This document shows, piece by piece, positions 3,999 to 52,528 of a DNA stretch of 64,000 nucleotides. Made by a program: the position numbers and the translations under genes. The notes under the pieces were generated by a model. It saw only the letters and a list, made by a program, of their open reading frames with translations, was not told where the DNA came from and ran no database searches. The first letter of the stretch is position 1; each line of letters begins with the position of its first letter. Source of the DNA: Coffea arabica (lineage: Eukaryota; Streptophyta; Magnoliopsida; Gentianales; Rubiaceae). The stretch is from assembly GCF_036785885.1 (NCBI RefSeq), contig NC_092323.1, positions 15,012,501 to 15,076,500 of the forward strand. The letters are read 5' to 3'.

Positions 3999-4200
3999 TG
4001 GGCCCTTGGGAGGAGGGCTACAACACGAAGTTTAAACCCCAAGCACAGCAACCGAGTTCACTCTGGGCCCAATCAGAGACCCTGAAGAGTCCAGATTGTT
4101 CCGGAACTGTAATCCATATCTCAGCCGTCCATTTTCCGTAAAACCCTAAACCCATTCCGGAACCAATATAAACCCTAGACTCCTTTTCTTCTATATAACT
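3999..4200 (+). promoter_or_regulatory. Promoter of the snoRNA cluster: site II, telo-box, TATA
   Basis: Two site II elements (TGGGCC) lie at 3999-4004 and 4064-4069. A telo-box AAACCCTAA is at 4141-4149 and a second AACCCTAG follows near 4171. TATA-like boxes are TATAAA at 4167-4172 and TATATAA at 4192-4198. Site II plus telo-box is the known signature of plant ribosomal-protein and snoRNA gene promoters transcribed by Pol II. The pairing with a TATA box just upstream of the first snoRNA supports a dedicated promoter rather than an intronic host gene. The transcription start is probably close to 4200, by inference. Confidence 0.75.
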
Positions 4201-4550: not shown

Positions 4551-4623
4551 ATTCTGCTATTCCGATTTCATTGTTTTTTATTAGATTTTTTGCACGAATT
4601 TCTCGTTATTTATAAAATTTCTA

Positions 4624-4720
4624 GGTGTCTAAGATGACACAAAAAGGCTCGAGAGCTTTCGCCTACGCCAGGCTTGAAAGCTTATGCTGCCTTTTTATTC
4701 TAATTTCTATCTGAGGCACC
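4624..4720 (+). ncRNA. U14-like C/D-box RNA without the U14 rRNA-pairing domains
   Basis: A six-pair terminal stem (4624-4629 with 4715-4720, one U-G pair) closes a degenerate C box AAGATGA (4631-4637) and a D box CTGA (4711-4714). The middle, from gagagctttcgcc to gcttatgctgcc, closely matches the central hairpin region of the three U14 copies downstream. The two U14 signatures are missing: domain A (CATTCGCAGT) and domain B (TCCTTCCTTGGATGT). The bases before the D box have no rRNA complement that I recognise. It may be a diverged U14 paralogue with a new target or a decaying copy. The intact terminal stem argues for a processed RNA. Confidence 0.6.
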
Positions 4721-4810
4721 CCCTCCATACCTCCATTATTACAACTTTTTTTCAAAAAACTTTAACGTGTAAGGATAAATGCTACAGGCATGTATGTTTA
4801 TTTGTTTAGG

Positions 4811-4953
4811 AGGGACTATTAACGTTGGCCCTTTAGCATTGGATTGAATTATTGCTTCAGGGATTTAGAAGTTCCTGATATGCAATTTCATCCATCCAAT
4901 CACTTTGTCAGCAATACCATATGTTTTGCTGGTCATTCAAGGATGGAATACCA
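4811..4953 (+). ncRNA. H/ACA snoRNA family, copy 1 (divergent, ATA box)
   Basis: Two hairpins: the 5' one closes with AGGGAC (4811-4816) and GTTCCT (4871-4876), the 3' one with CCATCC (4892-4897) and GGATGG (4941-4946). The terminal box is ATA (4948-4950) followed by three bases, where the sister copies have ACA. The region between the hairpins (gatatgcaa) has only a weak H box. It aligns with copies 2-4, sharing ttttgctg and the closing stems. It could be functional (ATA is tolerated in some H/ACA RNAs) or decaying. Confidence 0.6.
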
Positions 4954-5004
4954 AAACTATTGGTTCTGTTTTTGTTTTGGATATGTTTTGCTAAATTGGA
5001 AATT

Positions 5005-5127
5005 AGCAATGATGACAAATGCAAGGGCTTGTTTCTCAAAACATTCGCAGTGGCCGCCTAAGAGCTTTCGCCTTCGCCGGGCTTGAGAGCTTATGCTGCT
5101 TCTATCCTTCCTTGGATGTCTGAGCGT
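5005..5127 (+). ncRNA. U14: U14 C/D-box snoRNA, copy 1
   Basis: C box ATGATGA at 5009-5015 and D box CTGA at 5120-5123. Domain A CATTCGCAGT is at 5042-5051 and domain B TCCTTCCTTGGATGT at 5105-5119. Both domains are conserved in U14 from yeast to humans. Domain A pairs with 18S rRNA and is needed for pre-18S processing. Domain B next to the D box guides 2'-O-methylation of an 18S cytidine (C414 in yeast). The central segment with gagctttcgcc is the plant-type variable domain. The RNA acts in the nucleolus as a box C/D snoRNP. Ends are approximate. Confidence 0.95.
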
Positions 5128-5271
5128 TTACTCTTTCTTCGTTCTTTCTTTTCTAATTCTTGGCTTTTTTTCCTTTTCTGTTCCTTGGCTTAAGTTTTGA
5201 AGTCTGTTCTTGTTTCTGGTTTAGGATAGGATCAATGATTCGAGTTTCAGTTGTATGAGTTATAACATTTG

Positions 5272-5394
5272 GTTTATGATGACAAATCCAAAGGCTTGTT
5301 TCTCAAAACATTCGCAGTGGCCGCCTAAGAGCTTTCGCCTTCGCCAGGCTTGAGAGCTTGTGCTGCTTTTATCCTTCCTTGGATGTCTGAAACA
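5272..5394 (+). ncRNA. U14: U14 C/D-box snoRNA, copy 2
   Basis: C box ATGATGA at 5276-5282, domain A at 5309-5318, domain B at 5372-5386 and D box CTGA at 5387-5390. It is nearly identical to copy 1, with small changes after the C box and in the central loop. All rRNA-pairing bases are intact, so it should be functional. It follows copy 1 after about 145 bp of spacer. Confidence 0.95.
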
Positions 5395-5730
5395 TTTATT
5401 TATCATCATTCAGTGTGTTTCTTGTGCTGTGGTATGTTCAAGATGTACACCTTCTGTTGGAGAAGGTTAGAAGATTACTTTGGGCTTGTCAGTTGCCAAT
5501 TAGGCTTTAAGGTCTTTATTTGGACCATGTTGCAGTTTTAAATTTGTAGTGATGCTTGTTTCAACCATTGTTGAGCTAACACCGAGAATTGTGTTGTAGA
5601 ATTATGTCCCTCTGTTAGCAACGACAGTGAATTTTAATTGATTATGAAGTTGCATTTAGGACATGGGTGTGAGTTTGCAGTAGCTATCAACTACTAAATT
5701 GGTTACATTCCTGTAGGGGCTTTGGATTTT

Positions 5731-5869
5731 GGGACTTTTGATGTCTGCCCCTTTTGCATCAATTTGAGTTGCTTTTGGGATGAACAAGTCCCCTATATAC
5801 AATTATTCATCCTATACGTAATCTGCACTTCTTTTGATGTTTCACTGATTATGCAGTGATGGAACAATT
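5731..5869 (+). ncRNA. H/ACA snoRNA family, copy 2
   Basis: The 5' hairpin closes with GGGACTT (5731-5737) and AAGTCCC (5786-5792), seven pairs. H box ATACAA is at 5797-5802 and matches ANANNA. The 3' hairpin closes with TTCATC (5806-5811 region) and GATGGA. ACA box at 5864-5866 with three bases to the predicted 3' end. A full two-hairpin H-hinge-ACA layout makes it a likely pseudouridylation guide. Its target was not determined. H/ACA RNAs are known partners of U14 in plant clusters. Confidence 0.75.
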
Positions 5870-6025
5870 TTTTTAGCTCTTGGAATGTGACTGTGTTTCT
5901 CGCATGATATGTTTGGTCACCATCTTTGTGTTATGTTTCTTTAGTTGTTTCTTGATGCCTCGTCCCAATTTTTATTTTGTCATCTAGTTAGCATACTTTT
6001 GTATTGTTGCAGTTATTAATTTTTG

Positions 6026-6148
6026 GTTAATGATGACAAATGCAAGGGCTTGTTTCTCAAAACATTCGCAGTGGCCGCCTAAGAGCTTTCGCCTTTGCCG
6101 GGCTTGAGAGCTTATGCTGCTTCTATCCTTCCTTGGATGTCTGAAGCA
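6026..6148 (+). ncRNA. U14: U14 C/D-box snoRNA, copy 3
   Basis: C box ATGATGA at 6030-6036, domain A CATTCGCAGT at 6063-6072, domain B at 6126-6140 and D box CTGA at 6141-6144. The sequence matches copy 1 across almost the whole RNA. Copies 1 and 3 are closer to each other than to copy 2 just after the C box. Confidence 0.95.
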
Positions 6149-6539
6149 ATCTCCTACTATTGCTTTGAATTGATCTTGTTTAATTTTGTTTGTTCTTTTA
6201 TTTGATTTATTCTTTTTGCCCTGCAGTTACTTGATAGATGGAACATTGCATGGTTTTATCTGATTAGGTAATTTATCTGTTGTGTTTTTGCTTGCCTGTT
6301 TTCTCTTTCTTAAATATTGATGTACAAGTCCTTGAGAGATTTTTTTGCTTCACGCGAGCAAGTTGGTTGAAGAGAGGCCCACTTACAGTGTGTCAGTGGA
6401 TAGGATAGATAATTTTTACTTTGTACTTTCATTAATTTTGGTCCTCTGAATTAGGGTTTCAAGATAGGATGAATTAGTTGCCTATGAAATTGCAACCTTT
6501 GCGTGTTTAGGACTATGAAACATGGAAGAACTATTATCT

Positions 6540-6682
6540 GGGACTTTCAACGTCTGCCCCTTTGGCATGTATCTGGGTTGCTTTTGGGATGAACAGGTCC
6601 CTTACATCCAATCATCATTCATCCTATACTTAATCTGCATTGCTGGTATATGTTTTGCTGATTATACGGGGATGAAACAAAA
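6540..6682 (+). ncRNA. H/ACA snoRNA family, copy 3
   Basis: The 5' hairpin closes with GGGACTT (6540-6546) and AGGTCCC (6595-6601). The 3' hairpin closes with TTCATCC (6618-6624) and GGATGAA (6670-6676). ACA box at 6677-6679. The hinge at 6604-6609 is ACATCC, one base off the ANANNA rule. Loop sequence is close to copy 2, including gttgcttttgggatgaaca and gtctgcccc. It is probably functional, with a weak H box. Confidence 0.72.
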
Positions 6683-7110
6683 TTTTCCTTCTTGGTGTTG
6701 TACTTTTTTGTTGCTTGGGACTATTCTTTTTTCTAATTGTTGTTAGGGATTTAATGCTGTTGAGAACTTTGAAAACTTATAAACGAGAAATGGGAAAAGC
6801 GAATTCTGTTTGCTTCCTGATGTTTATTTGATAGTGGCTCTTTAATGACGATTCTTTGTATTGGGGCGAGCTGCTGTTGTGCTTGTAAAACCCACGAGTT
6901 TTTCAATAATCGTCAGACATAAAGCACTTGTTTTTGTGGTTGAGGCTTCTAATGAAGAATCCCACTGTGATGAGTTGCGTTCTCATATCCTATCGCCTTG
7001 TGTAGCAGAGTCTCTGCTATGACCTCTTGGGATTGGCCATGAGAAATACATTCAACACACACACACACCGACACATTTATTACAGGTTTATCAAAGTTCA
7101 AAGAGAAAAT

Positions 7111-7202
7111 ATGCCTATGATGAGATCTATACCAAAAATACCATCTTTCGGGACTGAATGGCTTGTTAATAGCCTTGCTGTCATTCTGCAATTCTGAGGC
7201 AT
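7111..7202 (+). ncRNA. C/D-box snoRNA with 25S and 5.8S guides (snR39BY type)
   Basis: A terminal stem ATGCC (7111-7115) with GGCAT (7198-7202) encloses C box ATGATGA (7117-7123) and D box CTGA (7194-7197). An internal D' box CTGA is at 7154-7157. Before D', the guide ACCATCTTTCGGG is complementary over 13 bases to the conserved 25S segment CCCGAAAGATGGT. The fifth base from D' pairs with its G, the site guided by snR39b in yeast (Gm805). Before D, the guide TTCTGCAATT pairs with 5.8S AATTGCAGAA, and the fifth base pairs with its G, equivalent to human Gm75. Both targets match what I recall of plant snoR39BY. rRNA sequences are from memory, not computed. Confidence 0.8.
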
Positions 7203-7372
7203 TCTATCTTATTGATAGCCCTTTAATTCACGTATTTGATTAGATTATCCCATTATCTCAACGGCCTGACCATTTTTGCTTTGAAAACTTTGTTGCAAAA
7301 CTTTGTTGGTTAGTAAAGAATTTAAGATCAAATATTTTTCTATACCTGTAGTGATTCCACTACAGCTAATTT

Positions 7373-7428
7373 AGTGCTTATGGACGGTCCGGTGCTGTTT
7401 AGTTTTTGCACAACAGCACTTAACATAA
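7373..7428 (+). ncRNA. Possible half H/ACA element (hairpin plus ACA)
   Basis: AGTGCT (7373-7378) pairs with AGCACT (7415-7420), followed by an ACA trinucleotide (7423-7425). A perfect 8-bp hairpin with a 4-base loop lies just upstream (ctgtagtg and cactacag, about 7346-7365). No convincing H box joins them, so an H/ACA call is weak. Confidence 0.25.
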
Positions 7429-8343
7429 TCATAAGCTACATTTAGTTTGGCCACCTTTTCTTTGAAGCCTCTTTCTCAATTTAACCTAGAAGAGGCTATC
7501 CTGTAGTGGCTGATATCTCATATGTAAATTATGAAAATGTACATGGATTAATACTGTTCATTCAATGTGCTGAATATGGGTTCTGCTTTCAGTTTGTGAT
7601 AATTCTATGATTTCGAATTGCAGGTCTTTGATTTTGCTGTGAAGGATATTTTAGTTTATTGTTTTGCCCCCATTCACCTGATGATTTGACAGGTTCAAGT
7701 AAATCATCTGGAGAACCGACCCACACAAAAGCTACAAGCGTGTATTACATCAATTTAGATATAGTACTATTGGTGTCATTATATCAAGCGATCAAGACCC
7801 AATAGATCTTAGAAAATATTTCTGCCAAATGTATATTCTATCATCCAAGAAATTGAGTGATTCCTTCTTTCTTCTAACTTTGAAATGAAAGTATCGATAG
7901 ATACTGTCAAGGGGCGAGTGGATGTCCTTCAGGCTGTTCCTACCAGTTAGAAGGTTTAGGGTTTAATGGATGCATAATGTGTCAGGATTGTATCTGTAAA
8001 TCGCAGTATTGAATCAACTTTGATGTACTGTGTTGATTTAATTTTGAGTTTGACAGAGTAATAGTGGTACCAAATTTGCCTGGATCTTTCTATGCATTGT
8101 GCTGTATTTTGTTTTCTTCTCCTGGTCGTATCGATCACATTAAGAGCATTTCCATTATAGATCAATTATTTTTTTCGTAGTCAATTAGAGGATTCGACAA
8201 AGATGTAGTACACATAATTGAAGGAACCCTGAATACGGGTTTTACTGTTTCATTTTCCAATGGTTATATATTCGTCCAGAGATTTGTTCTATTGAAGCTC
8301 AATATGCTCGCAAGAAGCTGAGAAGGTTAATTGAACTGTTTCA

Positions 8344-8489
8344 GGGACTTGTGAATGTCTTGCCCTTGAGCGTGAAATCAATTGCTCGAGGGAATAAAAG
8401 GAGTCCCTTACATGAAGATCCATCCCTTTGCTTGGTCAGCAATCCTTCTTGACATTATGCTTTGTTGACCACTCAGGGATGGAACAATT
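8344..8489 (+). ncRNA. H/ACA snoRNA family, copy 4
   Basis: The 5' hairpin closes with GGGACT (8344-8349) and AGTCCC (8402-8407). H box ACATGA at 8410-8415 fits ANANNA exactly. The 3' hairpin closes with an 8-bp stem, CCATCCCT (8420-8427) and AGGGATGG (8475-8482). ACA box at 8484-8486. The stems and boxes are the best of the four copies, although the inner loops differ most, so its target may differ. It is the last recognisable member of the array. Confidence 0.75.
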
Positions 8490-33626: not shown

Positions 33627-35519
33627 TCATTTGCTCAATCGATATGTTGGAATAGCCATCAGATGCTTGGCCCTGGTCATCACAAGGCCAAATTCCTCGG
33701 TCATGTCTAGCTCTGAAGGCAGCATCCCATTTGGAAGTTCCCAATTGAAACAATGCACCATTCGTGCCAACATAAGACGGACCACAGTTAGCCCCAACTG
33801 CATTCCAGGGCAGCTTCTTCTGCCTGAGCCAAAGGGAATAAGCTGGAAATCATGTCCTCTTACATCTATGTCGCTCCCAATAAATCTCTCTGGTGTAAAC
33901 TTCTCAGGATCAGACCATGCATTTGGATCTCTTCCGATTGTCCAAACATTGATCGTCACTCGGGAATCTTTCGGTATATGGAAACCGTCAACTATGCAAT
34001 CCTCCAAGGCTGCATGAGGAAGAAGTAATGGTACAACAGGATGGAGCCTTAATGCTTCCTTTACAACCATGTCTAAGTATGTCAGGTTTTCCAATTCTGA
34101 TTCCTCAACCATCCTGTGTAGGCCTACTTTTTCGTCCAATTCTTGCTGGACTTTCTTCATTACTCGGGGGTTTTTCAAGAGCTCCGCGAGTATCCATTCA
34201 ACAGTTGTAGCTGTAGTGTCCATTGCTGCAGTAAGCAAGTCCTGAAATGAAGATGCATATTTTTTTAATCTCTATGTTTCAGGAGATTAACTAATGTTAA
34301 GGGAAAGCAATGGCAGAAAGTTCTCACACCCTAGTGGACTAACAATAGAACACCATCAGTCAACCTGACACTTGTCAATCATGATTAGAGAGAAGTTGAT
34401 TTAGAATTCAGAAAGATCCTACTGTGACTTGAGCTAGTAAATATAAAGACTGATGGAAAGTAAGACGCAAGAAATGATCACCAGGAGCAAACTAAAAATG
34501 TTGTATTGGCTATGTAAACGACAAAAGCTTTGGCCTTTCAGAAAGTAAGCCACGGATCATTGCAGACTTGAGAAAGAAATGGAGCATCCAACTTAAGAGT
34601 AGATTGTAAACTTAATTCATGCATTCCTTACCACCAAAACTGCTTTGATGTGGCGGCGATCAAATTCAAATTCAGTTTCTTTAGATTTCATGAGGGCCAA
34701 AATGGTATAGACAAAGTCATCAGCTTGCCTAGCTTGGTTTGCAGATTGCTCGTGTTCATCAATAATCTTCTCTAAGAATTCATCAAAAATTTTGCCGACA
34801 GTCTTCATTCTCCTGGTCAAGCCTTGAAGATCAAGTACCTTAAGAAAAGGATAGTAATCTCCAAGGTTAGGTGTTGCCATTAATTGCATAGCCTCTTTAA
34901 TTACTGCTTTGAAGCCTCTGTCATCGAATTCCTTATCAGCATACTTCTTTCCAAACACCATCAGACAAGTCATGTTCGCGCTTAAGGCAGCAACTTCAGC
35001 ACCAATATCAACAACATCATGATTAAGAGCCGCCTGTTTGAGTGATTCAACAAACAATCCAAGCTCTTCCTTTCTCACAGACTGAAATGAACCGATCTTA
35101 AGATTACTAAGCAAATTTAAGGTGCATAATTTACGCATGTTGCGCCAATATGGACCATACTTCCCAAAGGCCAGGCTTCTTTGCCCAAACATCAGATACT
35201 TTGCAGCTTCATGAGGTGGCCTACTGGCAAAAACAAGATCATATGTCTTCAGGAATTGCTCAGCCGCATGGGGGGATGAAACAACGATGTTTGATATGAA
35301 TCCGAATCGTAGATGCATGATAGAACCATATTGCTTAGACAGCTTATGCAGATCCTGGTGAGGATTTTTCCCCAACAGATGAAGATGTCCTAGAATAGGA
35401 ACTCCTCTTGGACTAGGGGGCAATTTCTTCTTCTTGTTCTTTCTGATCAACAATGAATTGAAGAGAAGAACAGTTGCAAGTACTGTGAAAGTTATCCAGA
35501 CCAAAGCTGAAAACATCAT
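33627..35519 (-). CDS. Cytochrome P450, CYP71 clan (CYP736A-like), copy 1
   Basis: A microsomal heme monooxygenase; its substrate is unknown. Two exons, 35519-34632 (888 nt) and 34241-33627 (615 nt), phase-0 junction, give 500 aa. A hydrophobic N-terminal anchor (about 3-25) is followed by a lysine-rich stretch and the proline hinge [15 protein letters not shown]. The I-helix is AAMDTT at 301-306, with Ala where most P450s have Gly at 302. ExxR is at 358-361 (EALR), PERF at 413-416 and the heme loop [10 protein letters not shown] at 433-442 with the ligand Cys at 440. The single intron position is typical of A-type P450s. Text such as [11 protein letters not shown] and [15 protein letters not shown] resembles CYP736A members. 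Intact by all visible criteria. It has a close sister at 44994-46885. Confidence 0.93.
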
Positions 35520-44993: not shown

Positions 44994-46885
44994 TCATTTA
45001 CTCAATCGATATGTTGGAATAGCCATCAGATGCTTGGCCCTGGTCACCACAAGGCCAAATTCCTCGGTCATGTCTAGCTCTGAAGGCAGCATCCCATTTG
45101 GAAGTTCCCAATTGAAACAGTGCACTGTTTGTGCTACCATAAGACGGACCACAGTTAGCCCCAACTGCATTCCAGGGCAGCTTCTTCTGCCTGAGCCAAA
45201 GGGAATAAGCTGGAAATCATGTCCTCTTACATCTATGTTGCTCCCAATAAATCTCTCTGGTGTAAACTTCTCAGGATCAGACCATGCATTTGGATCTCTT
45301 CCGATTGTCCAAACATTGATCATCACTCTGGAATCTTTCGGTATATGGAAACCATCAACTATGCAATCCTCCAAGGCTGCATGAGGAAGAAGTAATGGTA
45401 CAACAGGATGGAGCCTTAATGCTTCCTTTACAACCATGTCTAAGTATGTTAGGTTTTCCAATTCTGATTCCTCAACCATCCTGTGTAGGCCTACTTTTTC
45501 TTCCAATTCTTGCTGGACTTTCTTCATTACTCGGGGGTTTTTCAAGAGCTCCGCGAGTATCCATTCAACAGTTGTAGCTGTAGTGTCCATTGCTGCAGTA
45601 AGTAAGTCCTGAAATGAAGATGCATATTTTTTTAATCTCTATGTTTCAGGAGATTAACTAATGTTAAGGGAAAGCAATGGCAGAAAGTTCTCACACCCTA
45701 GTGGACTAACAATAGAACACCATCAGTCAACCTGACACTTGTCAATCATGATTAGAGAGAAGTTGATTTAGAATTCAGAAAGATCCTACTGTGACTTGAG
45801 CTAGTAAATATAAAGACTGATGGAAAGTAAGACGCAAGAAATGATCACCAGGAGCAAACTAAAATGTTGTATTGGCTATGTAAACGACAAAAGCTTTGGC
45901 CTTTGAGAAAGTAAGCCGTGGATCATTGCAGACTTGAGAAAGAAATGGAGCATCCAACTTAAGAGGAGATTGTAAACTTAATTCATGCATTCCTTACCAC
46001 CAAAACTGCTTTGATGTGGCGGCGATCAAATTCAAATTCAGTTTCTTTAGATTTCATGAGGGCCAAAATGGTATAGACAAAGTCATCAGCTTGCCTAGCT
46101 TGGTTTGCAGATTGCTCGTGTTCATCAATAATCTTCTCTAAGAATTCATCAAAAATTTTGCCAACCGCCTTCATTCTCCTGGTCAAGCCTTGAAGATCAA
46201 GTACCTTAAGAAAAGGATAGTAATCTCCAAGGTTAGGTGTTGCCATTAATTGCATAGCCTCTTTGATCACAGCTTTGAAGCCTCTCTCATCGAATTCCTT
46301 ATCAGCATACTTCTTTCCAAACACCATCAGACAAGTCATGTTCGCGCTTAAGGCAGCAACTTCTGCACCAATATCAACAACATCTTGATTAAGAGCCGCC
46401 TGTTTGAGTGATTCAACAAACAATCCAAGCTCTTCCCTTCTCATAGACTGAAATGAACTGATCTTAAGATTACTAAGCAAATTTAAGGTGCATAATTTAC
46501 GCATGTTGCGCCAATATGGACCATACTTCCCAAAGGCCAGGCTTCTTTGCCCAAAACTCATATGCTTAGCAGCCTCATGAGGTGGCCTACTGGCAAAAAC
46601 AAGATCATATGTCTTCAGGAATTGCTCAGCCGCATGGGGCGATGAAACAATGATGTTTGATATGAATCCGAATCGTAGATGCATGATAGAACCATATTGC
46701 ATAGACAGCTTATGCAGATCCTGGTAAGGATTTTTCCCCAACAGATGAAGATGTCCTAGAATAGGAAGTCCTCTTGGACTAGGGGGCAATTTCTTCTTCT
46801 TGTTCTTTCCGATCAACAATGAATTGAAGAGAAGAACAGTTGCAAGTACCGTGATAGTTATCCAGACTAAAGCTGGACACATCAT
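44994..46885 (-). CDS. Cytochrome P450, CYP71 clan (CYP736A-like), copy 2
   Basis: Exons 46885-45998 (888 nt) and 45608-44994 (615 nt), 500 aa, with the same intron position and exon lengths as copy 1. All motifs are intact: proline hinge [29 protein letters not shown] and [10 protein letters not shown]. By eye about 24 residues differ from copy 1 (about 95 percent identity). Three adjacent changes at residues 107-109 (YLM in copy 1, HMS here) fall in the B-C region where SRS1 lies, so substrate preference could differ. The others are spread out, with a small group (LAR-M to VAQ-T) near residues 456-460. There is no sign of pseudogenisation. Confidence 0.93.
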
Positions 46886-51646: not shown

Positions 51647-52528
51647 TCATTCCGAAGAAGATTGATGATGTCCAGAATCGGACCAAGAGTTCATTGGAAA
51701 ATCTGCCGTGTTTTCGCTCCTGCTGCTTGAAGGCTTCAGAACTGGTGGTTGAACTGGCAAAAACAGAGGATAAGCAGGGGTTTGAGGAGAAGGAGCTGGT
51801 GCTGAAATAGTATAAGGGGGGAAGGAGGATGAAGTTGATTGAAAGGTAGAGCCCGTTGAGGAAGATGGTAAAAGAAACTGGTCCAACAAACTTGTTGGTT
51901 GTCTCGGCAAAAACCGGCTAGGATTTATGAAAGACATCTGATTCTGAGCAGCATTGGAATTCAAGAAATTGGCAGAATAAGCAGGATTTTGCATGTGATG
52001 AAGAACCTGATGAGTGTGAACGATTGGCTCAGAGGATGATACGATTGAGAAAAGGGCGTTTGGAGAATCAGAAACCATCAACTGGGAGGACGATAAGGAT
52101 GATGAAGATGAAGTAGAGGATGCAGAAGATGGCAAAAGTGTTACGTTTTCTGGGAAATTGAGTTTGGCTTTATTGCCTCGAAATCTTAGAGCTGCCTCAT
52201 CATAAGCTCTAGCAGCTGCCTCAGCTGTGTCAAATGTTCCTAACCAAACTCTTGCAGCCTTGTATGGATCCCTTATTTCAGCTGCCCATTTGCCCCACGG
52301 CCGCCGTCGAACTCCTCTGTATCTTCTCTTTGGCTCTCCTGTGTAGGGCTCTGTGCTGTTGGTACTTGTTGCAGCATATGTATATGTTGCTCCTGTTGCT
52401 GCCATGCTGGTTCTCATCAATGAACTCTCCGCTCCTGAATCATTCCATTTGAGAAGTTGTAAACAACAAAGCAAAAGAAGAAGATTCATTTCCAGATGAT
52501 AACCTATTAGAAATCAGAAGTGACCCAA

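Follow-up and report, generated by a model that had tools for sequence, protein, structure and literature searches.

Introduction

In yeast U14 the Y domain sits between domains A and B. It is an extra U14 element beyond these two domains that can matter on its own (PMC3950691 and PMC6315972), and the helicase Dbp4 was identified as a suppressor of its lethal mutations (PMC3950691); the Y domain is not known to be related in sequence to the central stem-loop of plant U14. Departures from domains A and B themselves are also described in PMC6315972. The Tetrahymena RNA TtnuCD32 is U14-like, lacks a canonical domain B and was proposed to have a new job in rRNA processing, and Drosophila U14 has lost domain B with the gene kept. 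These cases contradict the statement in an initial annotation of the present locus that domains A and B pair with 18S rRNA in all known U14.

Here we describe a 97-nt box C/D-like frame at 4624-4720 on the + strand of the window, by which we mean the whole 64,000-nt stretch of Coffea arabica DNA that was analysed. This candidate resembles TtnuCD32 in being a U14-like C/D RNA that departs from U14. TtnuCD32 keeps a domain A-like segment, whereas the candidate keeps neither domain but has the central stem-loop; for the Drosophila gene only the absence of domain B is reported (PMC6315972), and the candidate is without both A and B. With plant U14 (SNORD14, RF00016) it shares the central stem-loop, a C-like box, the D box, the distance from the stem-loop to the D box and the array in which it lies. 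It differs from plant U14 in having no domain A, no domain B and no match to the Rfam U14 model at E values up to 10, in possessing an extra 8-pair helix, and in the sequence that precedes the D box.

Judged from the sequence, we put the probability at about one half that the candidate is a U14-derived box C/D-type snoRNA, the first member of a polycistron, with a new single guide. That it is a functional C/D RNA appears fairly probable. U14 derivatives are already known; in the literature searched, whose coverage did not extend to the original plant U14 papers, we found no plant U14-like RNA without A and B and no derivative that lacks both pairing domains but has the central stem-loop, though a published description may exist.

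Results and discussion

The snoRNA array and its upstream region

The window has the look of plant DNA in its snoRNA families and its translations. An Rfam search at the gathering score returned eight snoRNA genes, namely three of SNORD14 (U14), four of snoR99 and one of SNORD96 (Table 1); each is on the + strand, and together they fall within 4852-8489. The candidate lies 5' of all eight. The four snoR99 copies are interspersed with the U14 genes. The snoR99 gene is probably longer than its Rfam match since two copies have an upstream half in common (5730-5806 versus 6539-6615, 83%). In its targets the SNORD96 match behaves like plant snoR39BY. The D guide suits 5.8S G79 and the D' guide the region of 25S G814, and PMC8053127 assigns SnoR39BY to these two positions.

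Other features of the window were recorded alongside. The segments 6840-6925, 6955-7055 and 7358-7524 look by eye like unannotated H/ACA RNAs, with hairpins and ACA-like ends. Four pieces from these segments were tested and folded only mildly better than their shuffles (z −1.24 to −1.63), and a snoR110 match at 7435-7518 stayed below the Rfam threshold (23.9 bits versus 44). On the − strand two ORF pairs about 10 kb apart (33627-35519 and 44994-46885) are alike by eye; their translations look like those of CYP71-type cytochrome P450 genes. The translation of an ORF at 51647-52489, also on the − strand, presumably contains an AP2/ERF-like segment, named by eye.

Upstream of the candidate a promoter-like region contains Site II elements, telo-boxes and a TATA-like box. 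Counted over the whole window, telo-boxes occurred 7 times with 2.89 expected, and Site II elements 30 times with 34.87 expected; it is the grouping of the elements, not their counts, that suggests a promoter here. The combination of telo-box and Site II has been described for plant snoRNA polycistrons (PMC4660826).

Table 1. Positions in the window of the candidate's elements, the upstream motifs and the Rfam snoRNA genes
Feature	Position	Strand	Basis
Promoter-like region	3999..4198	+	Site II, telo-boxes, TATATAA
Site II, TGGGCY	3999 and 4064/4066	+	motif scan
Telo-boxes, AAACCCTA	4141 and 4170	+	motif scan
TATATAA	4192-4198	+	read by eye
Terminal stem, 5' arm, GGTGTC	4624..4629	+	sequence
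C-like box, AAGATGA	4631..4637	+	one mismatch to RTGATGA
Extension helix, 5' arm, AAAAAGGC	4641..4648	+	fold
Stem-loop homologous to plant U14 central domain	4653..4690	+	pattern, alignment
Extension helix, 3' arm, GCCTTTTT	4689..4696	+	fold
Putative guide	4696..4708	+	pairs with 18S 758-770 (Arabidopsis numbering)
D box, CTGA	4711..4714	+	perfect match
Terminal stem, 3' arm, GGCACC	4715..4720	+	sequence
snoR99 H/ACA	4852-4953	+	Rfam, 71.2 bits
U14 (SNORD14) copy a	5004..5127	+	Rfam, 75.4 bits
U14 (SNORD14) copy b	5271..5394	+	Rfam, 80.6 bits
snoR99 H/ACA	5769-5869	+	Rfam, 46.2 bits
U14 (SNORD14) copy c	6025..6148	+	Rfam, 77.9 bits
snoR99 H/ACA	6578-6682	+	Rfam, 59.2 bits
SNORD96	7111-7202	+	Rfam match
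snoR99 H/ACA	8382-8489	+	Rfam, 44.0 bits

The box C/D-like frame

The six-pair terminal stem, the C-like box and the D box that had been reported for the candidate can be read directly from the sequence. One of the six stem pairs is a G-U pair, and the C-like box has A in place of the first U of RUGAUGA. The bases T4630, A4631 and A4632 would form a three-base bulge, so that the terminal stem and the two boxes can be drawn as a kink-turn in the usual register. In known kink-turns, that U of the C box is held by the 15.5K protein. The A for U exchange in the candidate would be expected to weaken 15.5K binding.

By itself, a C/D frame that has six or more stem pairs is not rare. Four were present on the + strand of the window and one on the − strand, as compared to a mean of 1.67 on one strand in 30 simulated windows; among 300 simulated stretches 4.5 kb in length, 77 contained one or more. 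All four C/D genes that Rfam identifies in the window escape the frame finder, since their stems do not reach its six-pair limit. Placed around the U14 stem-loop, such a frame is rare by chance: with a stem of at least six pairs it arose in 71 of 40,000 simulations with random flanks and in 3 of 20,000 shuffles of the candidate's own flanks.

Homology of the stem-loop to U14

The central domain of U14 was written as a 37-nt pattern. Its matches in the 64 kb were 4654-4690 and the three U14 genes, four in all, and 100 dinucleotide shuffles yielded none; two positions of the pattern were degenerate (A or G), and one of these was opened to admit the candidate's own letter. A letter-by-letter comparison of the candidate with each U14 copy gave 34, 34 and 33 identical bases out of 37, and over 43 nt the identity was 88%, 91% and 86%. 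A U-G pair of the U14 stem is a U-A pair in the candidate, by which the pairing is kept. The close match of the middle segment to the central domain of the U14 genes of the array, noted earlier, is borne out by these numbers. On this similarity the homology of the stem-loop to the array's U14 is beyond reasonable doubt and shows descent of the stem-loop from U14; it is through the central stem-loop that the relationship of the candidate to U14, also proposed in the initial annotation, holds.

Exact patterns of the stem-loop or of plant U14 segments were also scanned for in viral and prokaryotic collections, which carry no information on plant homologues. One 20-base pattern alone gave hits, in three bacterial genome bins; with no Rfam match above the gathering score, these were attributed to chance.

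Missing domains and probable origin from U14

To locate domains A and B, the window was searched allowing up to three mismatches. Domain A matched at three places, all in U14 genes, and domain B at five, which were the three U14 genes and positions 2169 and 33171. Neither search gave a match in 4624-4720, in agreement with the earlier report that both domains are missing from the candidate. Domain B guides a conserved 18S cytosine (C418 in Arabidopsis), and the candidate lacks this guide. No model, SNORD14 included, matched the candidate in an Rfam search of 4.5 kb with E values up to 10.

In the candidate, as in all three U14 genes, 20 nt separate GCTGC from the D box. These 20 nt have no sequence similarity between candidate and U14, since 40% to 64% of 5000 shuffles were as good. 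Between the C box and the stem-loop, CAA and a AAGGCTCG-like run are common to both, but of 5000 shuffles 4% equalled the similarity of the 5' flank to copy b, 28% that to copy a and 29% that to copy c. Outside the stem-loop there appears to be no clear similarity of the candidate to U14. The data fit a deletion of domain A together with an in-place replacement of domain B; a transfer of the U14 stem-loop into another C/D frame would be an alternative origin compatible with them.

The U14 copies differ behind the C box, where copy b (5283-5303) has CAAAGGCTTG and copies a and c have CAAGGGCTTG. Copy b may be the candidate's nearest relative in the array because the candidate carries the AAAGGC form at this place, as copy b does.

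Predicted fold

The stem-loop of the candidate is lengthened from below by an 8-pair helix of AAAAAGGC with GCCTTTTT, which was absent from the initial annotation. An inner helix as long as 8 pairs arose with 955 of 40,000 random flanks and in 298 of 40,000 shuffles of the candidate's own flanks. The fold of 4620-4725 had an energy of −36.2 kcal/mol with a z score of −4.02, and none of 200 shuffles was as good, as compared to z scores of 1.05, 0.08 and 0.36 for the three U14 genes. The strong z score of the candidate is in part due to the extension helix. In the unconstrained fold (−35.2 kcal/mol) the C box pairs with the D box, whereas the fold with the boxes open reached −28.3 kcal/mol; this preference counts against a C/D RNA. 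With the boxes held open, the bases 4697-4710 were 79-100% unpaired. By eye, no D' guide is left by the long internal helix, and therefore one guide, before the D box, remains.

The main rival explanation is that the candidate is a decaying U14 copy, a pseudogene that began as a tandem duplicate, in which domain A was deleted and domain B was altered by point changes and in which the terminal stem and the D box are in part leftover or fortuitous. U14 is indeed multi-copy in the array, the flanks of the stem-loop can no longer be aligned with confidence, and the C box is imperfect. However, the stem-loop is still identical to the U14 copies at 33-34 of 37 bases while the rest is gone, decay is not expected to produce an extension helix of 8 pairs or a terminal stem of 6, and relative to shuffles the fold is far better than those of the U14 relatives. 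We consider a pseudogene rather unlikely on these grounds.

A second explanation is that the hairpin acts in cis and is no independent RNA: as part of the 5' leader it would mark where an enzyme (e.g. of the RNase III type) cleaves or enters the polycistronic precursor. Such a role would suit the long rod of the unconstrained fold and the location of the candidate, first in the array and some 430 nt downstream of the TATA-like box. It would leave the D box, the near-C box and the terminal stem in C/D spacing as unnecessary features, and the three U14 genes carry the same stem-loop between their C and D boxes, within the Rfam SNORD14 match, which makes the cis element improbable.

Predicted 18S rRNA target

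For the reading that we prefer, a U14-derived snoRNA with a single guide, the bases before the D box were scanned by duplex energy over 18S, 25S, 5.8S, U2 and U6. The best site was 18S A760 at D+5 with −17.0 kcal/mol, and the next site reached −11.1 kcal/mol. The predicted duplex extends from D+3 to D+15 and consists of ten Watson-Crick pairs followed by a G-U, a Watson-Crick and a G-U pair. Base 4706 is at D+5, opposite A760, and base 4696 is common to the putative guide and the end of the extension helix. Among shuffled guides, 45 of 1500 (3%) reached −17.0 kcal/mol, or 25 of 1500 if the duplex was to start by D+3. With a simpler score applied to 18S alone, 17 of 1000 shuffled guides were as good. 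This first guide score, in which G-U pairs count half, gave values of 12.0 and 11.5; a score of at least 11.5 was obtained for 12 of the 449 20-mers that precede a CTGA on both strands of the window, three of them from U14 and one from the candidate. Since that many 20-mers reach the simpler score, we prefer the energy scan and call the support for the target modest.

The Arabidopsis 18S sequence used in the scan carries the right base at 35 of the 35 methylated positions of Table 1 in PMC8053127; the 25S sequence used was imperfect, with 30 of 74 check bases. As controls, U14 was directed to 18S C418 (−28.1 kcal/mol) and the D' guide of SNORD96 to the 25S G814 region (−27.2 kcal/mol; position 813 of the 25S sequence used, G814 of the published table). 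The D guide of SNORD96 was placed at 5.8S G79 with −17.1 kcal/mol, barely ahead of two places in 25S (−16.9 and −16.8 kcal/mol).

The orphan status that had been suggested for the candidate is doubtful in view of an 18S site in the D+5 register, but 3% of shuffled guides equal that site. The scan of the pre-D-box bases against rRNA and snRNA, recommended at the same time, thus yielded a best partner, 18S 758-770, at an energy within the reach of shuffled guides. A760 is not among the 35 Arabidopsis 18S methylation sites in Table 1 of PMC8053127, and a second Arabidopsis map has 35 18S sites in common with the first according to the review PMC8393311. No guide for 18S A760 was found in the literature searched; A760 may have been predicted earlier, as one of the 145 sites that PMC8053127 leaves unconfirmed. 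The assignment of A760 as target of the candidate guide is possible but tentative. Its place off the Arabidopsis list would mean either a site specific to other plants, or a pairing with another role, or chance.

An Rfam search of 146 bases (4600-4745) gave only three matches, all sub-threshold, of which snoR113 (RF01420) was best (16.6 bits, E 0.23). A snoR113-like guide for U2 snRNA G13, the position assigned to SnoR113 in Table 3 of PMC8053127, in which AAAAAGGC, downstream of the C box, would pair with the 5' end of U2 (−17.6 kcal/mol with the U2 sequence used; 22 of 2000 shuffles as good, U2 alone), is highly improbable and was set aside, because the score is far under the gathering score of 47, the duplex requires a bulged base, no CUGA-like D' box is seen by eye directly behind AAAAAGGCTCGAG, tiles of 25S and 18S are nearly equal in energy (−16.9 and −16.5 kcal/mol), and AAAAAGGC is already taken up by pairing in the extension helix.

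Proposed biogenesis and implications

As a U14-derived snoRNA, the candidate would be transcribed from the telo-box/Site II promoter as part of a polycistronic snoRNA precursor and excised from the common transcript as an RNA of about 90-97 nt. The core C/D proteins would assemble on the kink-turn that the boxes form with the terminal stem. The D'/C' half would be taken up by the long internal helix, and only the guide before the D box would be used. By pairing with 18S 758-770 this guide would either place A760 for 2'-O-methylation or chaperone that segment of the pre-18S rRNA. Relative to U14, the central stem-loop would have been kept and domain A lost, with the position of domain B filled by a different sequence.

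We also considered a more far-reaching proposal, in which the plant U14 central stem-loop is a functional module of its own, like the yeast Y domain, that has been set on a new guide frame and acts in 18S maturation through the module and the 18S 758-770 pairing without the classical U14 domains. This proposal is speculative and we regard it as doubtful.

If the candidate is expressed and conserved, it would be a natural experiment that parts the U14 central stem-loop from the two pairing domains, by which the role of the stem-loop becomes a question that can be asked. It would also illustrate clearly how a guide RNA can arise from an essential processing RNA via loss and replacement of its antisense elements, with 18S A760 as a single testable modification site.
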